From: Planctomycetota bacterium
GTDB lineage: Bacteria > Planctomycetota > SZUA-567 > H5-PLA8
Assembly: GCA_016200135.1 (NCBI GenBank)
Contig: JACQFI010000033.1
Span: forward strand, 1-64,000
DNA: 64,000 bases
Reading direction: 5' to 3'
In this document: piece by piece, positions 22,737 to 38,492 of the stretch
Layout of the letters: each line of letters begins with the position of its first letter
Numbering within the stretch: the stretch's first letter is position 1
The notes under the pieces: model-generated
What the model saw: only the letters and a program-made list of their open reading frames with translations
Database searches by the model: none
What the model was told of the DNA's origin: nothing
Translations under genes and position numbers: made by a program

Positions 22737-24701
22737 TTACTTCGCGGCGCCCGCTTCGGCCGGCTTCTTGGCCGGCGAGGCCTGCAGCGCGCGGAGCACT
22801 TTGCCGGCGGGACCGTCGAGTTCGAGCGGATAGCGCATCGCGAACTCAGCGGCGACGCGGGCCAGGGCCTCGGCGTTGCCCGCGGCGGCATGCAGCCGGG
22901 CGCGCTCGACATGCGCGGCCTGGCGCAGGCCTTCGGCCTGGGCGCGCGCCTCGTCGTTCATTCCCGCGATGGGCGTGACGCAGATCTCGTCCAGCGCGGC
23001 CAGACCTTCGCCCTTGCGGCCGGCCTGCTGCAACGCGCGGGCCTTGCCCAAGCGCGCGGCCATGCCTTCGACCGAGCGGCCCAGCAGGTCGCACGTGGCG
23101 TCGAAGAGGCCCGGCAGATTCTCGTCCGCGGTGGCGGCGGCGTCCGCGGCTTCGCCGCTCGCGGGCAGTTCGCGCATCTGGTAGAGCGCCCACGGCCGGT
23201 AGAACTGGGTCAGCAGCAGCGCGGCTTCGTCGGGGGAGAAGTCCTTCAGGCGCATCGCAGCCACGACCTTCGGCGCGAGCTTGAGTTCGGCGAGGCCCGG
23301 CGCGTGCGGCGCGGCGGGATCGTCCAGGCCGCCTTCCAGCGCTTCGCGGAAGGCCACCGTCGCAGCCAGGAACGCAGCCTGCGCGCCCGACTGCGCCTGC
23401 GGCGTGCCGATGGCGAGCAGGACGCGGCCGCGCTCGTAATGCGCCAGGCCTTCAAGCACGCGGGCGCGGCGGCGGCCTTCGAAGCTCAAGGGGAAGCCCT
23501 GGGTGATCTCGCGCAAGCCCTGCTGGCCCAAACTGAGCCGCGCGGCGCGCTGATCGAGGTTCTCCACGCCGTTGGCTTCGGTGAGCGTCTGCAGCGCGTC
23601 GCGCATGCCCGCGTCCGCGGCGGTGCCGCCGGGAAGCTGCTCGGTCAGCACGAAGCGGCGGCCCAGTGCGTTGAAATCGAAGGGCGGGAAGAGGCCCAGC
23701 GTGGCGCAGTCCTGCGGGCCGTTACCGTCGTTGGCTGCCCATGCTTCGTTGCGGCTGTCGAGGGCCTGCGGCGCGGTGAACGCGCTCAGAACGGCATCGG
23801 TCGAACCGGAGGGCGCGGCCGACGGGGCGAGGCGCGCGCAGTGCATCCGTTCCACGGCCAGCCCGTCCACGTAGGCCGTGCCTTCCTTTACTGTCAGCAG
23901 CACGACGCCCGCCGGAGCTTCCGGCTTGGCGGCTGGTTCGGGCGCCGACCAGGGACCCAGGCCCTGCGGCGCGCGAGCGCGGCTGGACACCGGAATCCAC
24001 AGGTCGATCACCGAACCCGGCAGAAGCCGCAGTTGCCCGCGGGCCGTATTCATAATGAAGCCGAGATTCTCGCGGCCCACCACGATGCCGGCGCGGCCGC
24101 TCTCGAGCCCAAGCGTGACCGCGCGGTCGCGAACCTTCTCGATGCGCACCCGGCTGTCTTCGTCGATGTCGAGCGCCGAACCGTCGGCCAGCACCAGCCG
24201 CGCGAACTCGCCGCGCTGCGTCGCCAGCACGTCGCCGTCGAAGAGCTTGGCGCCCTTGGTCAGCGTCTCCTGCGCGCCGTCGGCGTGCACGATATGCGCG
24301 CGGTTGCCCGACGCGATCTGGCCCGCCGGTTCGCGCGGATGAATCATGTAGAAGGCGACCATCAAGAGGGCCACCGCGGAGAGCGCCACCGCGAAGCGGT
24401 TGCGAATGCGCTTGGCTCGCAGCACGGTCATCCGCTTGCGGTAGTCCGTGTAGATGCCCGCCATCACCTTGTCGGCGATTTTGTACGGCGGTTCGCTCAG
24501 GTTCTCGAGGCCTTCGCGCAGCAGCCGCGCCTCTTCACGCATGGCGTCCAGCGTCCGGCGCGCGGCGGGGTTGGCCTTCAAGCGCTCTTCGATCTGGGTC
24601 TGTTCTTCGGGGGCGAACCGGCCGTCCATATAGCGCTGCAGTTCGATCTCGGAGATCGGCGGCGCCGCGGGGTCCATAAAGTTGTTCACGTTCTCGCTCA
24701 T
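22737..24701 (-). CDS. FecR-domain anti-sigma factor with long C-terminal extension
   Basis: About 654 aa from the ATG at 24701 (24713 and 24707 are also possible). Residues about 10-85 look like an anti-sigma helical domain (IELQRYMDGRFAPEEQTQIE, NPAARRTLDAMREE) without the HxxxCxxC zinc motif. One transmembrane helix follows (FAVALSAVALLMVAFYMI, about 97-115). Residues about 125-235 are a FecR domain (GAKLFDGDVLATQRGEFARL, VRIEKVRDRAVTLGLESGRA). The C-terminal 400 residues are mostly Ala-rich helices that could be TPR-like. It lies 21 nt downstream of the ECF sigma gene, so the pair probably forms a sigma/anti-sigma switch with an exported sensor. The trigger is unknown. Confidence 0.85.
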   Translation of the reverse strand: MSENVNNFMDPAAPPISEIELQRYMDGRFAPEEQTQIEERLKANPAARRTLDAMREEARLLREGLENLSEPPYKIADKVMAGIYTDYRKRMTVLRAKRIRNRFAVALSAVALLMVAFYMIHPREPAGQIASGNRAHIVHADGAQETLTKGAKLFDGDVLATQRGEFARLVLADGSALDIDEDSRVRIEKVRDRAVTLGLESGRAGIVVGRENLGFIMNTARGQLRLLPGSVIDLWIPVSSRARAPQGLGPWSAPEPAAKPEAPAGVVLLTVKEGTAYVDGLAVERMHCARLAPSAAPSGSTDAVLSAFTAPQALDSRNEAWAANDGNGPQDCATLGLFPPFDFNALGRRFVLTEQLPGGTAADAGMRDALQTLTEANGVENLDQRAARLSLGQQGLREITQGFPLSFEGRRRARVLEGLAHYERGRVLLAIGTPQAQSGAQAAFLAATVAFREALEGGLDDPAAPHAPGLAELKLAPKVVAAMRLKDFSPDEAALLLTQFYRPWALYQMRELPASGEAADAAATADENLPGLFDATCDLLGRSVEGMAARLGKARALQQAGRKGEGLAALDEICVTPIAGMNDEARAQAEGLRQAAHVERARLHAAAGNAEALARVAAEFAMRYPLELDGPAGKVLRALQASPAKKPAEAGAAK

Positions 24702-24722
24702 AGCCATCCCCATCTATTCAAC

Positions 24723-25259
24723 CTACACGTGGCGTTTAAGTTTCGCCTGCAGCATCTTTTTTGCCCGGTGGATGCGCGTCTCAACCGTCGTGATCGGCAC
24801 CTCCAGAATGTCCGCGATCTCCTCGTAACTCTTCTCTTCCTGAAACCGCAGCAGCAAGACCTCGCAGTACTTGTCGTCCAGGCTCAGCATCGCTTCCCGG
24901 ACCTGCCCCGATGTCACCCGGTTCTCGTATACTTCCTCGGGCCGCGGCGCACTCTTATCGACCGCCCGTTCCAGCTCTTCGTCTTCCGCCGTTCTCGGGC
25001 GCTTCTTGCGGCGGTAGTCGATGCACAGGTTGCGCAGAATCCTGTAACACCACTTCGCATATCCGCCCGCGCTGGGATCGACCTGCGAGATCGTCCGCCA
25101 GGTCTGCGTCAGCGCGTCCTGCACCAGATCCGCCGCGTCTTCCCGGTTACCGATCCGGCGCAGCGCGAACGTGAACAGCGCCGCCTCGTGCTCGTGGCAG
25201 AACTGGTCGAACAGGCGCGGATCGCCGTTCCCGGGCTCGAACGTTCGCTCTTCAGCCAA
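24723..25259 (-). CDS. ECF RNA polymerase sigma factor
   Basis: 178 aa with the two ECF regions. Sigma-2 (about 20-88): FCHEHEAALFTFALRRIGNR, EDAADLVQDALTQTWRTI, WCYRILRNLCIDYRRK. Sigma-4 (about 118-175): MLSLDDKYCEVLLLRFQEEK, SYEEIADILEVPITTVETRI, HRAKKML. A short acidic linker separates them. It would direct polymerase to a small regulon and is presumably held by the FecR protein encoded next. The genes are ordered sigma then anti-sigma with 21 nt between. First gene of the pair; the 185 nt upstream to the GNAT gene has no other feature I can support. Confidence 0.92.
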   Translation of the reverse strand: MAEERTFEPGNGDPRLFDQFCHEHEAALFTFALRRIGNREDAADLVQDALTQTWRTISQVDPSAGGYAKWCYRILRNLCIDYRRKKRPRTAEDEELERAVDKSAPRPEEVYENRVTSGQVREAMLSLDDKYCEVLLLRFQEEKSYEEIADILEVPITTVETRIHRAKKMLQAKLKRHV

Positions 25260-28244: not shown

Positions 28245-30026
28245 ATGGCCGAATGGATGGACCAGCTCTCCTCGCAGATCCAGGATCCGTTGCGGCGGCG
28301 TCTGCTCAAGAGCCTGCAGGAGCGCATGACCGAGTGGGTCGCGAGCGGCGATCCGCGCTTCACCCTGCGCCCGCTGCCCGGCCTGGACTGGCTCTGCCCC
28401 TTCTGCTCCGCGCACGTCAAGACTCCGCACTGGGACGGCCGCGACCAGACGCTCTTCGGTGACAACGACGTCCTGCTGCATCTCGACGCCTGCCCGGCGA
28501 TCAAGGTGGGCTTCAAGCAGCCGCAGATGCTCCCCTGGAACCAGCTCGTCAACGTGCTGATCAACATCCGCCTGCGCCACTGGCCCAACTACCAGGTGGG
28601 CAACATCGAGGGCCACTGGATCTGCCCCTACTGCATCGGCGACACCGGCATCATCCGCTACCACTGGGACGGCAGCGACGCCAACCTGGACTGGTTCATC
28701 CCCGAAGCGCTCAAGCACCTCGAACACTGCACCGAATTCAAGACCAATCCCATGTTCGCGCGCACCGAGAGCGAGCTGCTGGCGCAGCACGAACCGTACG
28801 CGCTGCGCAAGAACCTGCGCGAGCGGGTGGAACGCGAGGAGATCTTCCAGGTCTTCGACGACACCGGGAGCTGGATCGATCCGTTCACCATGCAGCCGGC
28901 GGCGCACATCAACCAGTTCCAGACGCCCTGGGGCGAGGGCCTGCAGGAACTGATCGTCGAGCACCTGATCTCGCCGGGTTGTTCCGGGCGCCAGAGCAAA
29001 TGGCGCACGGACGTAACGGTGGCCGAACTGCAACGCGTCGCGGGCAAGCAGTCGATCACGCGGCTGCTGAACCGGAGTTTCCAAGGCGGGGAGGCGCCGA
29101 AAGACGGCGCCGCGATCGACCTCGACGCGCTGGGCCTGCGCGCGGCCCCCGCGGCGCAGGCACCGCCGCGCGCGGCCGCCCGCGCCGCAGCCCGGCCGGC
29201 CCAGGCCGTTCAGGCCGCGCCCGCTCACGAGCAGGTCTTTACCGACGTCGGCGGACCTCCGGCTGAGCACGCAGCGCTTCCGGACGCACTCCATAGCGAA
29301 ATGGTGGCGGCGCGCGAGTTGCAGATCCAGCTCCTGCCTTCGCAGCCGCCCCAAGTGCCCGGCTACGAAGTCTCCGCCTTTTACGATGCCTGCGAGATGC
29401 TCGCCGGCGACCTCTTCCAGTTCACCACGCCGCTGCCGGGGTACACGGGCTTTTTCATCGCCGATGTGGCCGGCCACGGGCTCGACGCCGCGCTGATGAT
29501 GGCCATGACGCTGAAGACGTTCTCGATGCACGCGCGCGGCCGGGCCTCGCCCGCCGAAGTGCTCTCGCTCGTCTGCCACGAACTCACCAACGATCTGCCC
29601 AAGGGCAAGTTCATCACCGCGCTGTACGCGATCCTGCATGAAGAGACGGGCGAGATTCGTTTCGCGCGGGCCGGGCACAACCCCGCGTTTCTGGCCGAAC
29701 CCGCGCGCGGCAAGGTCACGCCCATGCGCGAAGGCGGCCTCGCGCTGGGCGTCGGCAGCCCGCAACTTTTCACCTCGCGGCTGAAAGAAGGCCGCGCGCA
29801 GATGACGCCCGGCGCGGCGATCCTCTTCTATACGGATGGCCTGGTGGAAGCCCACAGCCCCGACGGCACGCCTTTTGGCGAAGGCCGCCTCTGCGCGACG
29901 TTCATGCAGCGTTCGCCGCAGCGCAGCCGGCTGATCATCGAAGGCATTGTGGACGAACTGCGCCAGCACGTCGCCAGCGATCAGAACCAGGACGACCTGA
30001 CGCTGATCGTGCTCAAGCGGCACTGA
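28245..30026 (+). CDS. PP2C/SpoIIE-type phosphatase with tandem zinc-ribbon-like N-terminal modules
   Basis: About 593 aa from the ATG at 28245. Two N-terminal modules share one pattern: C51-P-F-C54 ... H79-x3-C83 and C127-P-Y-C130 ... H158-x3-C162, each followed or preceded by a HWDG motif. They look like duplicated C2HC zinc ribbons. After a helical middle and an Ala/Pro-rich linker (about 295-345) comes the SpoIIE/RsbU phosphatase domain (about 350-590): ELQIQLLPSQPPQVPGYEV, DLFQF, ADVAGHGLDAALMMAMT, FARAGHNPAFL, and the metal site FYTDGLVEAHSPDG. RsbU-type phosphatases act on anti-sigma-factor antagonists in stress signalling; no partner kinase or antagonist adjoins. I know no named family for the zinc-ribbon pair. 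Confidence 0.88.
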   Translation: MAEWMDQLSSQIQDPLRRRLLKSLQERMTEWVASGDPRFTLRPLPGLDWLCPFCSAHVKTPHWDGRDQTLFGDNDVLLHLDACPAIKVGFKQPQMLPWNQLVNVLINIRLRHWPNYQVGNIEGHWICPYCIGDTGIIRYHWDGSDANLDWFIPEALKHLEHCTEFKTNPMFARTESELLAQHEPYALRKNLRERVEREEIFQVFDDTGSWIDPFTMQPAAHINQFQTPWGEGLQELIVEHLISPGCSGRQSKWRTDVTVAELQRVAGKQSITRLLNRSFQGGEAPKDGAAIDLDALGLRAAPAAQAPPRAAARAAARPAQAVQAAPAHEQVFTDVGGPPAEHAALPDALHSEMVAARELQIQLLPSQPPQVPGYEVSAFYDACEMLAGDLFQFTTPLPGYTGFFIADVAGHGLDAALMMAMTLKTFSMHARGRASPAEVLSLVCHELTNDLPKGKFITALYAILHEETGEIRFARAGHNPAFLAEPARGKVTPMREGGLALGVGSPQLFTSRLKEGRAQMTPGAAILFYTDGLVEAHSPDGTPFGEGRLCATFMQRSPQRSRLIIEGIVDELRQHVASDQNQDDLTLIVLKRH

Positions 30027-30445: not shown

Positions 30446-32065
30446 TTACTCCTTCACGCCGGGCTCTTTCTCTTTCACGGCTTTTGCGGTGCCGCTCCAG
30501 TCGGCGTACGTGTCGACGAGTTCGAAGTAGCGCTTGAGATTCTTGTAGTCGTCGTGCCAGGTGGTGTACATGAAGCCGAGCACGCCCGGAACGCCGGTGG
30601 AGACTTTCATCCAATTGCCGATGTTATTCTTCATCGCCGCGTCGGAGCGGCCGTCGTAGTAGCCGCAGATTACTTGGGGATTGCCGCGGTCGGCGAAGAA
30701 CTTGAGGCCGTCGGTCTTGGGCGCGTACCAGTTGAGGATGATCACATCCTTGGGCACGCCTTCCCACGAACCGTCCCAAGTGCCGTTGACGAGATAGTAG
30801 TAGCCCTTGTCCGCGAACGGGCGCGCGTTGTGGAAGGGCGTGAACATGTCGGACCAGGTGTAGATCTTGGCCTCGGGCACGTTTTTGCGGACGAGGTCGT
30901 ACATGGCCTTGAAGTGCTTCGCGAGCAGTTCGCCGGGCTTGAGGGGTTTGCCGTCGGGCATGGGTTCCCAGCCGGCGACGCGGATCTCGTCGTAGTTGAG
31001 CATGAACGCGCCGGGCTTCCAGACCTTGATGCAGTTCTTCAGGTCGAGTTCGAGGATCTCCAGCGTCTTCGGGTCTTCCAGCGAGATGCCGTCCTGGTCG
31101 GTGCCGGTGCGGTAGCCGTGCCAGAAGGAGACCTTGAGCTTCTCACCGTCCTTGATGCGCGAGCCCTCGATCAGTTCGATCTCCGCGGGCTTGCGGTCAA
31201 TGGTGAACTCCCCGTCGAACGGCTTCTTGAGCATGTCCGCGTCGTGGAGCGGCTTGAAGTCCTTGCCTTCCTCGTAGACGGTCTTGCCGTCTTCAGACGC
31301 CACCGTGAGCGGGATCAGCGGGCGGCGCGCGAGCAGCAGCGTGCCGGCGAGTTCGATCTTGAGGTCCGCGACCTTCGCCGCGCCGGGGTTGATGCGGAAG
31401 CGCACTTCGTTTGAGTCCAGCGAGTTGAACGTGTAGACGACGGGCTTGCCCGAGGCCGCGCCTTCCAGGTGCGGCGTGCCGCGCGAGAGCCAGCGCTTGC
31501 TATCCACGCCGGTGGCGCGGATCAGTTCGTCGGCGTCGCCTTCGTATTTGCCTTCGAGCTTGAACGTGACTTTGTAATGCTGGAAGGGCCGGACCTTCAG
31601 CACGCCGTTGAAGCCGTTGCCTTCGGCTTTGAGCGCCGCGAGGTCGGGCGCGCCCGCGGGATCGGCGCCGGCCTTGCCGTCCTTCACGACGAAGGGCATC
31701 TCCTTCACCGGCAGGCCCGCGGTGAGGTTGGGATCGAAATGGAAGTAGCGGCCCGAATAGCCGATCGAGCAGATGCCTGGGACGAGCGCGATGCCGAGTT
31801 CTTGCGCCGCGGCCTTTACCTTATCTGCGCGCGCCTGGTATTCGGCGTCGTCGGGGAACCTGAGCCAGCGGCCTTCGACGAGCAGCGCGTGCGTGCAGCC
31901 GGTGGCCTTCGCGTCTTTGAGCAGCGCGAGGAACTTTTCGAGCCCCGCGTCGCTGCCGAGATTGGCTCGCGCGTAGATCCAGCGTTCGGGCAGTTTGTCC
32001 TCGGCGGCTCGAGCGACGACCGCCGTGAGGGCCAGCGCCGAGAGCAGAATGGTGAGCGCGCGCAT
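30446..32065 (-). CDS. Secreted glycoside-hydrolase-like TIM barrel protein
   Basis: 539 aa with a signal peptide (MRALTILLSALALTAVVAR, cleavage near ARAAED). A barrel-like start (about 25-125: WIYARANLGSDAGLEKFLAL, ATGCTHALLVEG, LGIALVPGICSIGY) is interrupted by a beta-rich accessory module (about 150-330). The barrel then appears to resume (about 345-520: IKVWKPGAFMLNYDEIRVAG, EAKIYTWSDMFTPFHNA, KDVIILNWYAPK, NPQVICGYYDG). D and E in MLNYDEIR and W/D in TWSDM are the likeliest active-site residues, as in GH20/GH84-type enzymes. The family is not one I can name, so activity is inference. AAGGAGA lies 8 nt before the ATG. Confidence 0.8.
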   Translation of the reverse strand: MRALTILLSALALTAVVARAAEDKLPERWIYARANLGSDAGLEKFLALLKDAKATGCTHALLVEGRWLRFPDDAEYQARADKVKAAAQELGIALVPGICSIGYSGRYFHFDPNLTAGLPVKEMPFVVKDGKAGADPAGAPDLAALKAEGNGFNGVLKVRPFQHYKVTFKLEGKYEGDADELIRATGVDSKRWLSRGTPHLEGAASGKPVVYTFNSLDSNEVRFRINPGAAKVADLKIELAGTLLLARRPLIPLTVASEDGKTVYEEGKDFKPLHDADMLKKPFDGEFTIDRKPAEIELIEGSRIKDGEKLKVSFWHGYRTGTDQDGISLEDPKTLEILELDLKNCIKVWKPGAFMLNYDEIRVAGWEPMPDGKPLKPGELLAKHFKAMYDLVRKNVPEAKIYTWSDMFTPFHNARPFADKGYYYLVNGTWDGSWEGVPKDVIILNWYAPKTDGLKFFADRGNPQVICGYYDGRSDAAMKNNIGNWMKVSTGVPGVLGFMYTTWHDDYKNLKRYFELVDTYADWSGTAKAVKEKEPGVKE

Positions 32066-37523: not shown

Positions 37524-37969
37524 GGGGCCTCCGTGCGAAGATTGTCGAGAACACCGGAAGCGTGCTCCGCGCCCTGCGGCGGTACGCGCGGCGCAGGCAC
37601 GAGCCTGCATCCAGTGCGCATGCGCCAGGCCCACACGCGCGCGGTGGGCTCGTCGAGTTCCGGAAGGAGTGCGCGGAGGTCTTCGCTTGTGGCTTGGCCT
37701 TGCGCCGGACCCATCGCCGCCGCCGGCCACGGCGAATACTCCGCTGCGCTCATAGCGAGATTGAGCCAGAGGACCACCGCAGCCGCGGTCGCCGCGACAA
37801 AGCGGCCAAACCCGATGCGGCCGATCTGTTCGATGCGGCTCGAGCGCGGCTTGGCGCAGGCTGCTCGAACTTCCGCCAGAACCTTGGCGCGAAGTTCGGA
37901 CGGAAGGCCCGGCCCGGCGCGGTCTGCTAGGCGTTGTTCGAGATCTTGCGGCCCGCCGAGATCACTCAC
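37508..37969 (-). CDS. Small membrane protein, probable anti-sigma factor
   Basis: About 153 aa. The GTG start at 37969 sits in GTGAGTGA, overlapping the stop of the ECF sigma gene, so translation is coupled. The first 50 residues (VSDLGGPQDLEQRLADRAG, LPSELRAKVLAEVRAAC) resemble the cytoplasmic start of many anti-sigma proteins. One membrane helix follows (FGRFVAATAAAVVLWLNLAM, about 55-76), then a short extracytoplasmic part ending in a Pro-rich tail. No zinc motif is seen. Its place directly after the sigma gene is the main reason for the anti-sigma call. It overlaps the next gene by 16 nt. Confidence 0.72.
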   Translation of the reverse strand: MSDLGGPQDLEQRLADRAGPGLPSELRAKVLAEVRAACAKPRSSRIEQIGRIGFGRFVAATAAAVVLWLNLAMSAAEYSPWPAAAMGPAQGQATSEDLRALLPELDEPTARVWAWRMRTGCRLVPAPRVPPQGAEHASGVLDNLRTEAPWDTH

Positions 37970-38492
37970 GCGTGCGAACCTCCAGGATGCCGCGCAGTTT
38001 CTCCAACGCGTACCGATAGCGGCTGGCCGCCGTGTTCGGACTGATGGCCAGCGCATCGGCGACTTCCTCGAACGTAAGCCCGCCGTCGATCTTCAGGACA
38101 ATCACTTCGCGCTGTTCCAGCGGCAGCGCCGCCAGCGCGGCCTGGTAATCCACGGGGCTCTCGACAGTGGATCCCACGGCCTGCGCGGCGTCTGTCGAAC
38201 GCTGAACGCGTGAGCGCTGCTCCAGCATCTGCCCGCAAGCGCGGCGCAGGGACGAGAACAGGTATGCGTCCAGATTGCGAACCTCCATCAGCGATCCTCT
38301 TGCCCGCGCCAAGCCCACGAAAACCTCCTGCACCGCGTCTTCCGCTTCCTCGCGGGAGTTCAACAGTCCCCACGCGGCCCGAAAAAGCCGCGGCGCGCTG
38401 CGGTCGTAGAGTTCCGCCCACGATTCTTCGCGGCCGTCGCGGAGGTGCCTCAGCAGGGCGTCATCTGTGCCGTCCATCAACGCTTCCGTCAT
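37962..38492 (-). CDS. ECF RNA polymerase sigma factor (second in window)
   Basis: 176 aa. Sigma-2: WAELYDRSAPRLFRAAWGLL, NSREEAEDAVQEVFVGLARA, LDAYLFSSLRRACGQML. Sigma-4: LAALPLEQREVIVLKIDGGL, TFEEVADALAISPNTAASRY, RYALEKLRG. The start could be M1 (38492) or M6 (38477); neither has a clear ribosome site. It is the first gene of a three-gene operon in which each junction overlaps (8 nt, then 16 nt). This suggests stoichiometric production of the sigma factor and its membrane partners. The 116 nt upstream up to the end of mutS holds only a small TAAGAAA repeat. Confidence 0.92.
   Translation of the reverse strand: MTEALMDGTDDALLRHLRDGREESWAELYDRSAPRLFRAAWGLLNSREEAEDAVQEVFVGLARARGSLMEVRNLDAYLFSSLRRACGQMLEQRSRVQRSTDAAQAVGSTVESPVDYQAALAALPLEQREVIVLKIDGGLTFEEVADALAISPNTAASRYRYALEKLRGILEVRTRE

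Follow-up and report, generated by a model that had tools for sequence, protein, structure and literature searches.

A SpoIIE-type phosphatase with an N-terminal array of putative zinc-finger-like repeats in a planctomycete genome

Our study examined a 64 000 nt stretch of planctomycete DNA (the window) and found a gene for a 593-aa protein which, as judged from its sequence, carries an intact SpoIIE-type protein phosphatase domain, preceded by an N-terminal half made up of three related repeats of ~75 aa each, two intact and one degenerate. We put a probability of roughly 0.5 on the reading that this is a cytoplasmic partner-switching serine/threonine phosphatase of the SpoIIE/RsbU kind, in which a zinc-stabilized repeat array serves as the protein-docking and regulatory region. 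The catalytic family is known; what is new is the unnamed regulatory repeat and the gene neighbourhoods in which it is found. The features of the gene are as follows.

28245..30026, + strand: putative zinc-repeat SpoIIE-type phosphatase gene, 593 aa, with a start shared with a 78 % identical genus-mate protein
28296..28511, + strand: repeat 1, residues 18-89, candidate ligands C51, C54, H79 and C83, profile E 1.5e-13
28518..28751, + strand: repeat 2, residues 92-169, candidate ligands C127, C130, H158 and C162, profile E 1.9e-19
28785..28982, + strand: repeat 3, degenerate, residues 181-246, profile E 1.7e-8, with H240 and C246 left
29061..29291, + strand: Ala/Pro-rich variable linker, residues 273-349, with the highest dN/dS in the protein (0.57)
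29292..30020, + strand: SpoIIE/PP2C (PPM) catalytic domain, residues 350-592, first helix included
29439-30020, + strand: Pfam core of the catalytic domain (PF07228)

Translation of the reading frame revealed no internal stops, and a 655-aa ORF on the opposite strand was taken to be a GC-rich shadow of the phosphatase gene. The protein matched PF07228 (SpoIIE) over residues 399-592 with an E value of 1e-44, scoring 153 bits where the cut-off is 25, and all of the acidic metal-site motifs were present: D389, D407 (in DVAGHG), D531 (in TDG) and D583/D584. A sequence-only reading of this stretch had described two CPxC...H-x3-C modules ahead of a complete PP2C/SpoIIE domain, and both the domain and the ligand spacing were as described (C51-x2-C54-x24-H79-x3-C83 in module 1 and C127-x2-C130-x27-H158-x3-C162 in module 2). 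That reading knew of no named phosphatase family with such an N-terminus; Pfam, NCBIfam and PDB sequence searches likewise named only SpoIIE-type proteins and assigned the N-terminus to no named domain family. The solved structures that best matched by sequence (PDB 3eq2/3es2 and 3ke6) did so over the catalytic domain only. Among plasmid records, 226 matched the protein, and in the best matches listed only the catalytic domain was aligned; a search of viral contigs gave no match.

A profile of 88 intact repeats, drawn from relatives and the window protein itself, served to define the repeats. When searched against the whole genome, repeats 1 and 2 were recovered at levels beyond chance, with E values of 5.6e-10 and 3.8e-18, and repeat 3 was recovered at 1.7e-6 using a profile built without it. 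The earlier description of a duplicated pair was thus correct in that both modules are real, but incomplete, as there is a third, degenerate repeat in this protein and there are up to five repeats in relatives. In repeat 3 the CPxC is replaced by D212-P-F-T215 (DPFT), and this CPxC is also broken in the sampled relatives of the taxonomic family. A match in Enterococcus (L038) was rejected, as the shared stretch, WIDPFTMQ, lies in a conjugation-type protein that is otherwise unrelated. Loss of the Cys and His residues in orthologues had been named as evidence that would count against the modules; all eight ligands of repeats 1 and 2 were unchanged in the genus-mate orthologue and the ligands were kept in 90 % or more of the proteins in an alignment of 43. 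On the whole, then, no such loss was seen, although repeat 1 has lost ligands in some relatives of the family. Comparison with the genus-mate gave dN/dS values of 0.07, 0.40 and 0.35 for repeats 1, 2 and 3, 0.57 for the linker between the array and the catalytic domain, and 0.20 for the catalytic domain. No other part of the protein is as constrained as repeat 1.

The metal site was assessed in 224 repeats, aligned by anchoring on a near-invariant Trp. CxxC and H-x3/4-C were both present in 200/224 repeats and none clearly lacked just one ligand. H-x3/4-C accompanied CxxC in 200 of 203 repeats, versus 4 of 21 in which the CxxC was broken (Fisher p 5e-19, a value inflated by relatedness). In the three CxxC repeats without the H-x3/4-C spacing, the last Cys was shifted in two and the third was interrupted. 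Of the 21 broken-CxxC repeats, 17 also lacked H-x3/4-C, and on inspection each showed two or more ligands missing or out of place. These losses were scattered over several separate families, and the affected repeats still kept the Trp and Pro. As the ligands vanish as a set while the Trp and Pro stay, the pattern points to a single zinc site in a small fold able to survive metal-free, and this all-or-none loss supports the view that each intact repeat has one zinc site. Repeats 1 and 2 therefore each probably hold one structural metal ion, presumably zinc, via C-C-H-C, whilst repeat 3 would have lost its site and kept its core.

An AlphaFold model of one repeat, built from six sequences (mean pLDDT 64), placed a helix, two strands around the CPYC and a second helix ending at the H-x3-C. 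This suggests, with modest confidence, that the repeat is an alpha-beta-beta-alpha C2HC finger-like unit. Foldseek searches with this model returned no PDB match, and a two-sequence model of the whole N-terminus reached a pLDDT of 35. The modules had been called zinc ribbons in the sequence-only reading; this was rejected, as the second CxxC knuckle is absent and ligands 3 and 4 are supplied by H-x3-C at the end of a modelled helix. A classical zinc ribbon and the window repeat thus have one CPxC knuckle in common, but differ in the second half of the site.

The genome of the window contains five SpoIIE genes. The closest relative of the window protein among them is a module-less, 368-aa protein on contig C114 (L002:1126-2232), which has probably lost the repeat array: it groups with the window protein and the genus-mate at full support in the tree, and it retains SGQQKSITR, an AGKQSITR-like remnant, before its catalytic domain. 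The gene on contig C37 is a paralogue of the same architecture as the window protein, and its neighbours are in part conserved throughout the taxonomic family. In both genus members, an HTH_17 and PTS EIIA fusion gene (L039:8303-9037 and L041:7194-7889) lies immediately downstream of the C37-type paralogue. The window copy itself was found only in its genus.

With two CPxC sites per chain, ligands strictly kept in the genus and the low dN/dS of repeat 1, the array could be imagined as a metal or redox sensor in which oxidation of the CPxC thiolates or zinc loss in repeats 1 and 2 alters the array and thereby turns phosphatase activity on or off. We regard this as unlikely, however: in several lineages individual repeats persist without their ligand set, as expected if zinc is structural, and the close paralogue has probably lost the whole array. 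No redox or metal gene recurred among the conserved neighbours, except for an uncharacterized one beside the C37-type paralogue. Zinc-less repeats that retain the Trp, together with the module-less close paralogue, favour a structural role for zinc. It is more doubtful still that the repeats act as C2HC fingers that bind DNA or RNA and so tether the phosphatase to the chromosome or to ribosomes. Tandem CCHC fingers, the basic residues that surround the helices in many of the relatives and an RsgA-like gene just upstream in one clade would fit such a tether, but the window protein had no above-cut-off match to nucleic-acid-binding finger families, with weak matches only in relatives, and the RsgA-like linkage is restricted to that clade. 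Least probable of all is that the window copy has diverged into a side branch and does little of its own, being a duplicate made within the genus whose third repeat is worn and whose linker has degenerated. Its genus-limited occurrence, diverged linker, unconserved neighbours and module-less sister copy would fit this, but repeat 1 and the catalytic domain are under purifying selection, and the catalytic residues and both putative zinc sites are fully intact.

The partner-switching reading draws upon what is known of the catalytic family. SpoIIE-type PPM phosphatases dephosphorylate STAS anti-anti-sigma factors (PMC11418112), and PPM phosphatases are switched via their N-terminal region by partner binding, as for RsbU with RsbT, where the partner induces ordering of the linker and dimerization of the phosphatase (PMC12143880). 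The window phosphatase would probably dephosphorylate an anti-sigma antagonist with a STAS domain, the gene for which lies at another place in the genome. The array of the phosphatase would serve as a protein-docking, and probably oligomerizing, platform, and a partner acting through it would switch the catalytic domain. That copy number varies and that repeats persist without zinc would both fit an array with a structural role. The linker before the PPM domain is Ala/Pro-rich in the window copy, unlike the coiled-coil-like stretch seen by eye in its paralogue and in many of the relatives, and this copy may therefore not use the linker mechanism of RsbU.

The sequence-only reading had noted that no antagonist or kinase gene adjoins, and this holds for the window: no STAS, HATPase_c_2 kinase or sigma partner was found adjoining the gene. 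Its neighbours are a sulfatase, a protein without a Pfam match and FtsK, and they are not conserved, even in the genus-mate. In the window, the reverse strand encodes a protein of 539 aa that has no Pfam match and begins with a signal-like stretch (30446-32065), a 178-aa ECF sigma factor followed by a 658-aa FecR-domain protein (22737-25259, ~3 kb from the phosphatase and on the opposite strand to it), and a second ECF sigma factor (37962-38492) on the same strand as mutS and just downstream of it. Candidate partners are present in the same genome, including a SpoIIE-HATPase_c_2-STAS operon on contig C87 and further STAS and HATPase_c_2 genes, among them those on contig C23, with 12 STAS places in total; contig C137 also encodes a STAS protein. 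Two neighbouring genes on C23 (L166:4278-6460; G000:C23:61278-63460) encode a protein with HU-like DNA-binding, weak receiver-like and HATPase_c_2 regions and a STAS and HATPase_c_2 fusion, and look like an unusual anti-sigma-kinase-like pair.

The repeat was not confined to this genome. The profile matched 64/392 Planctomycetota genomes, about one in six of the species sampled; the planctomycete label of the family reflects the phylum sampled and not a proven limit. This search for the module in other proteins, as the earlier reading had proposed, found it nearly always fused to SpoIIE: all but two of the complete genes extracted around the matches joined one to five detectable repeats to SpoIIE. 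The family signature, at least one W-x-CP[YF]C...H-x3-C repeat N-terminal to SpoIIE, is one that the window protein fits. Two genus-mate loci (L037 and L040) were one contig and were counted once. Repeat-only genes without SpoIIE were seen at L114 (7541-8389, 282 aa) and L132 (6310-7125, 271 aa), which are possible adaptors or fragments, plus a few cut by contig ends. At L044/L179/L183 (G156:C1:2721121-2721953) the repeat-1 part lay in another frame than the remainder, a possible frameshift or sequencing error.

Gene neighbourhoods in these relatives support the sigma-factor switch that the sequence-only reading had suggested, as STAS or ECF sigma genes lie beside the phosphatase in several of them. 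The proposed search for co-occurring antagonists revealed a single same-strand STAS gene adjoining the repeat phosphatase in six genomes (L045, L046, L053, L061, L065 and L112), versus ~0.3 expected by chance on our own estimate from 12 STAS places and ~60 loci. Five of these STAS genes were above the Pfam cut-off and that of L046 was below it, and all six proteins had a Ser at the phospho-site. L109 and L116 carry a weakly matching STAS-like domain fused at the N-terminus, and this domain lacks the phospho-site Ser.

A second arrangement was seen in families f24, f44 and f63, where an active phosphatase, in most cases with five repeats, precedes a paralogue that has three repeats and has lost its catalytic residues. 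The dead paralogue has one supported origin in the tree (97/87), a few separate cases aside. An ECF sigma gene lay directly 3' of it in 7/7 loci of these families where the sequence continues, and the next gene was a zf-HC2/FecR anti-sigma in the locus tested and clustered with the unit in three others. The conserved unit, (active SpoIIE)-dead SpoIIE-ECF sigma, is represented by L048, L049, L052, L054, L055, L126 and L129. Just upstream there was often an RsgA-like gene, which we take from its sequence to be the ribosome GTPase RsgA. ECF sigma factors are a class not usually under SpoIIE-type control. We tentatively suggest, as a possibility that is still rather less likely than our main reading, that the active five-repeat phosphatase and the dead three-repeat paralogue, the latter of a single ancient origin, may control the ECF sigma factor that is co-encoded with its FecR/zf-HC2-type anti-sigma, within a Planctomycetota signalling system whose SpoIIE phosphatases would be governed by C2HC-repeat arrays. 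In family f15, a PrpC-type PP2C gene directly follows the repeat phosphatase. The ECF sigma or PrpC-type neighbours of some families count against the partner-switching reading, as do the lack of an adjoining STAS, kinase or sigma gene at the window and a fold taken from a pLDDT 64 model without a Foldseek match.

The C2HC fingers of Di19 and RNF125 also have CPxC followed by H-x3-C, a likeness that need not mean homology. Weak zf-Di19 profile matches were obtained in 14/43 relatives (best E 1.3e-4) and an RNF125 chain (8gbq) matched at E 0.04, whereas the window protein had no match above the cut-off to Di19/RNF-type C2HC finger profiles; the weak zinc-finger matches found here and there among the relatives look as if short CPxC motifs had been added up. 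Compared to Di19 and RNF125, the window-family repeat has a longer loop and an extra N-terminal helix, and it is part of a bacterial phosphatase, where it occurs in tandem.

Few kinds of N-terminal sensor domain are known for SpoIIE/RsbU phosphatases. The window protein shares with the partner-switching PPM phosphatases RsbU, RsbP and SpoIIE (PF07228) the catalytic domain with its metal-site residues, an N-terminal regulatory region and, in its relatives, linkage to STAS. Members of that family have PAS, GAF, receiver, HAMP or RsbU-type N-termini (PMC12143880), in place of which the window family has a C2HC repeat array. The window copy also differs from the RsbU type in having no obvious coiled-coil linker and no adjoining STAS or kinase gene, the partner-switching components of its genome being on C87 and C23. 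RssB of P. aeruginosa and Rv1364c of M. tuberculosis, the proteins of the best-matching structures 3eq2/3es2 and 3ke6, are SpoIIE-like and matched over the catalytic domain only; they have receiver or PAS N-termini (PMC12143880) and no zinc repeats.

Our literature search found no work on sigma-factor control in Planctomycetota and, to our knowledge, the subject has been little studied there. To the known regulatory regions our study adds one of zinc-finger-like repeats, unnamed in Pfam or NCBIfam, in around a sixth of the planctomycete species sampled. Zinc-less repeats, an array-less paralogue, STAS neighbours and fusions, and a dead-phosphatase partner beside an ECF sigma factor are natural experiments within the family, which offers testable entry points into planctomycete sigma-factor control.
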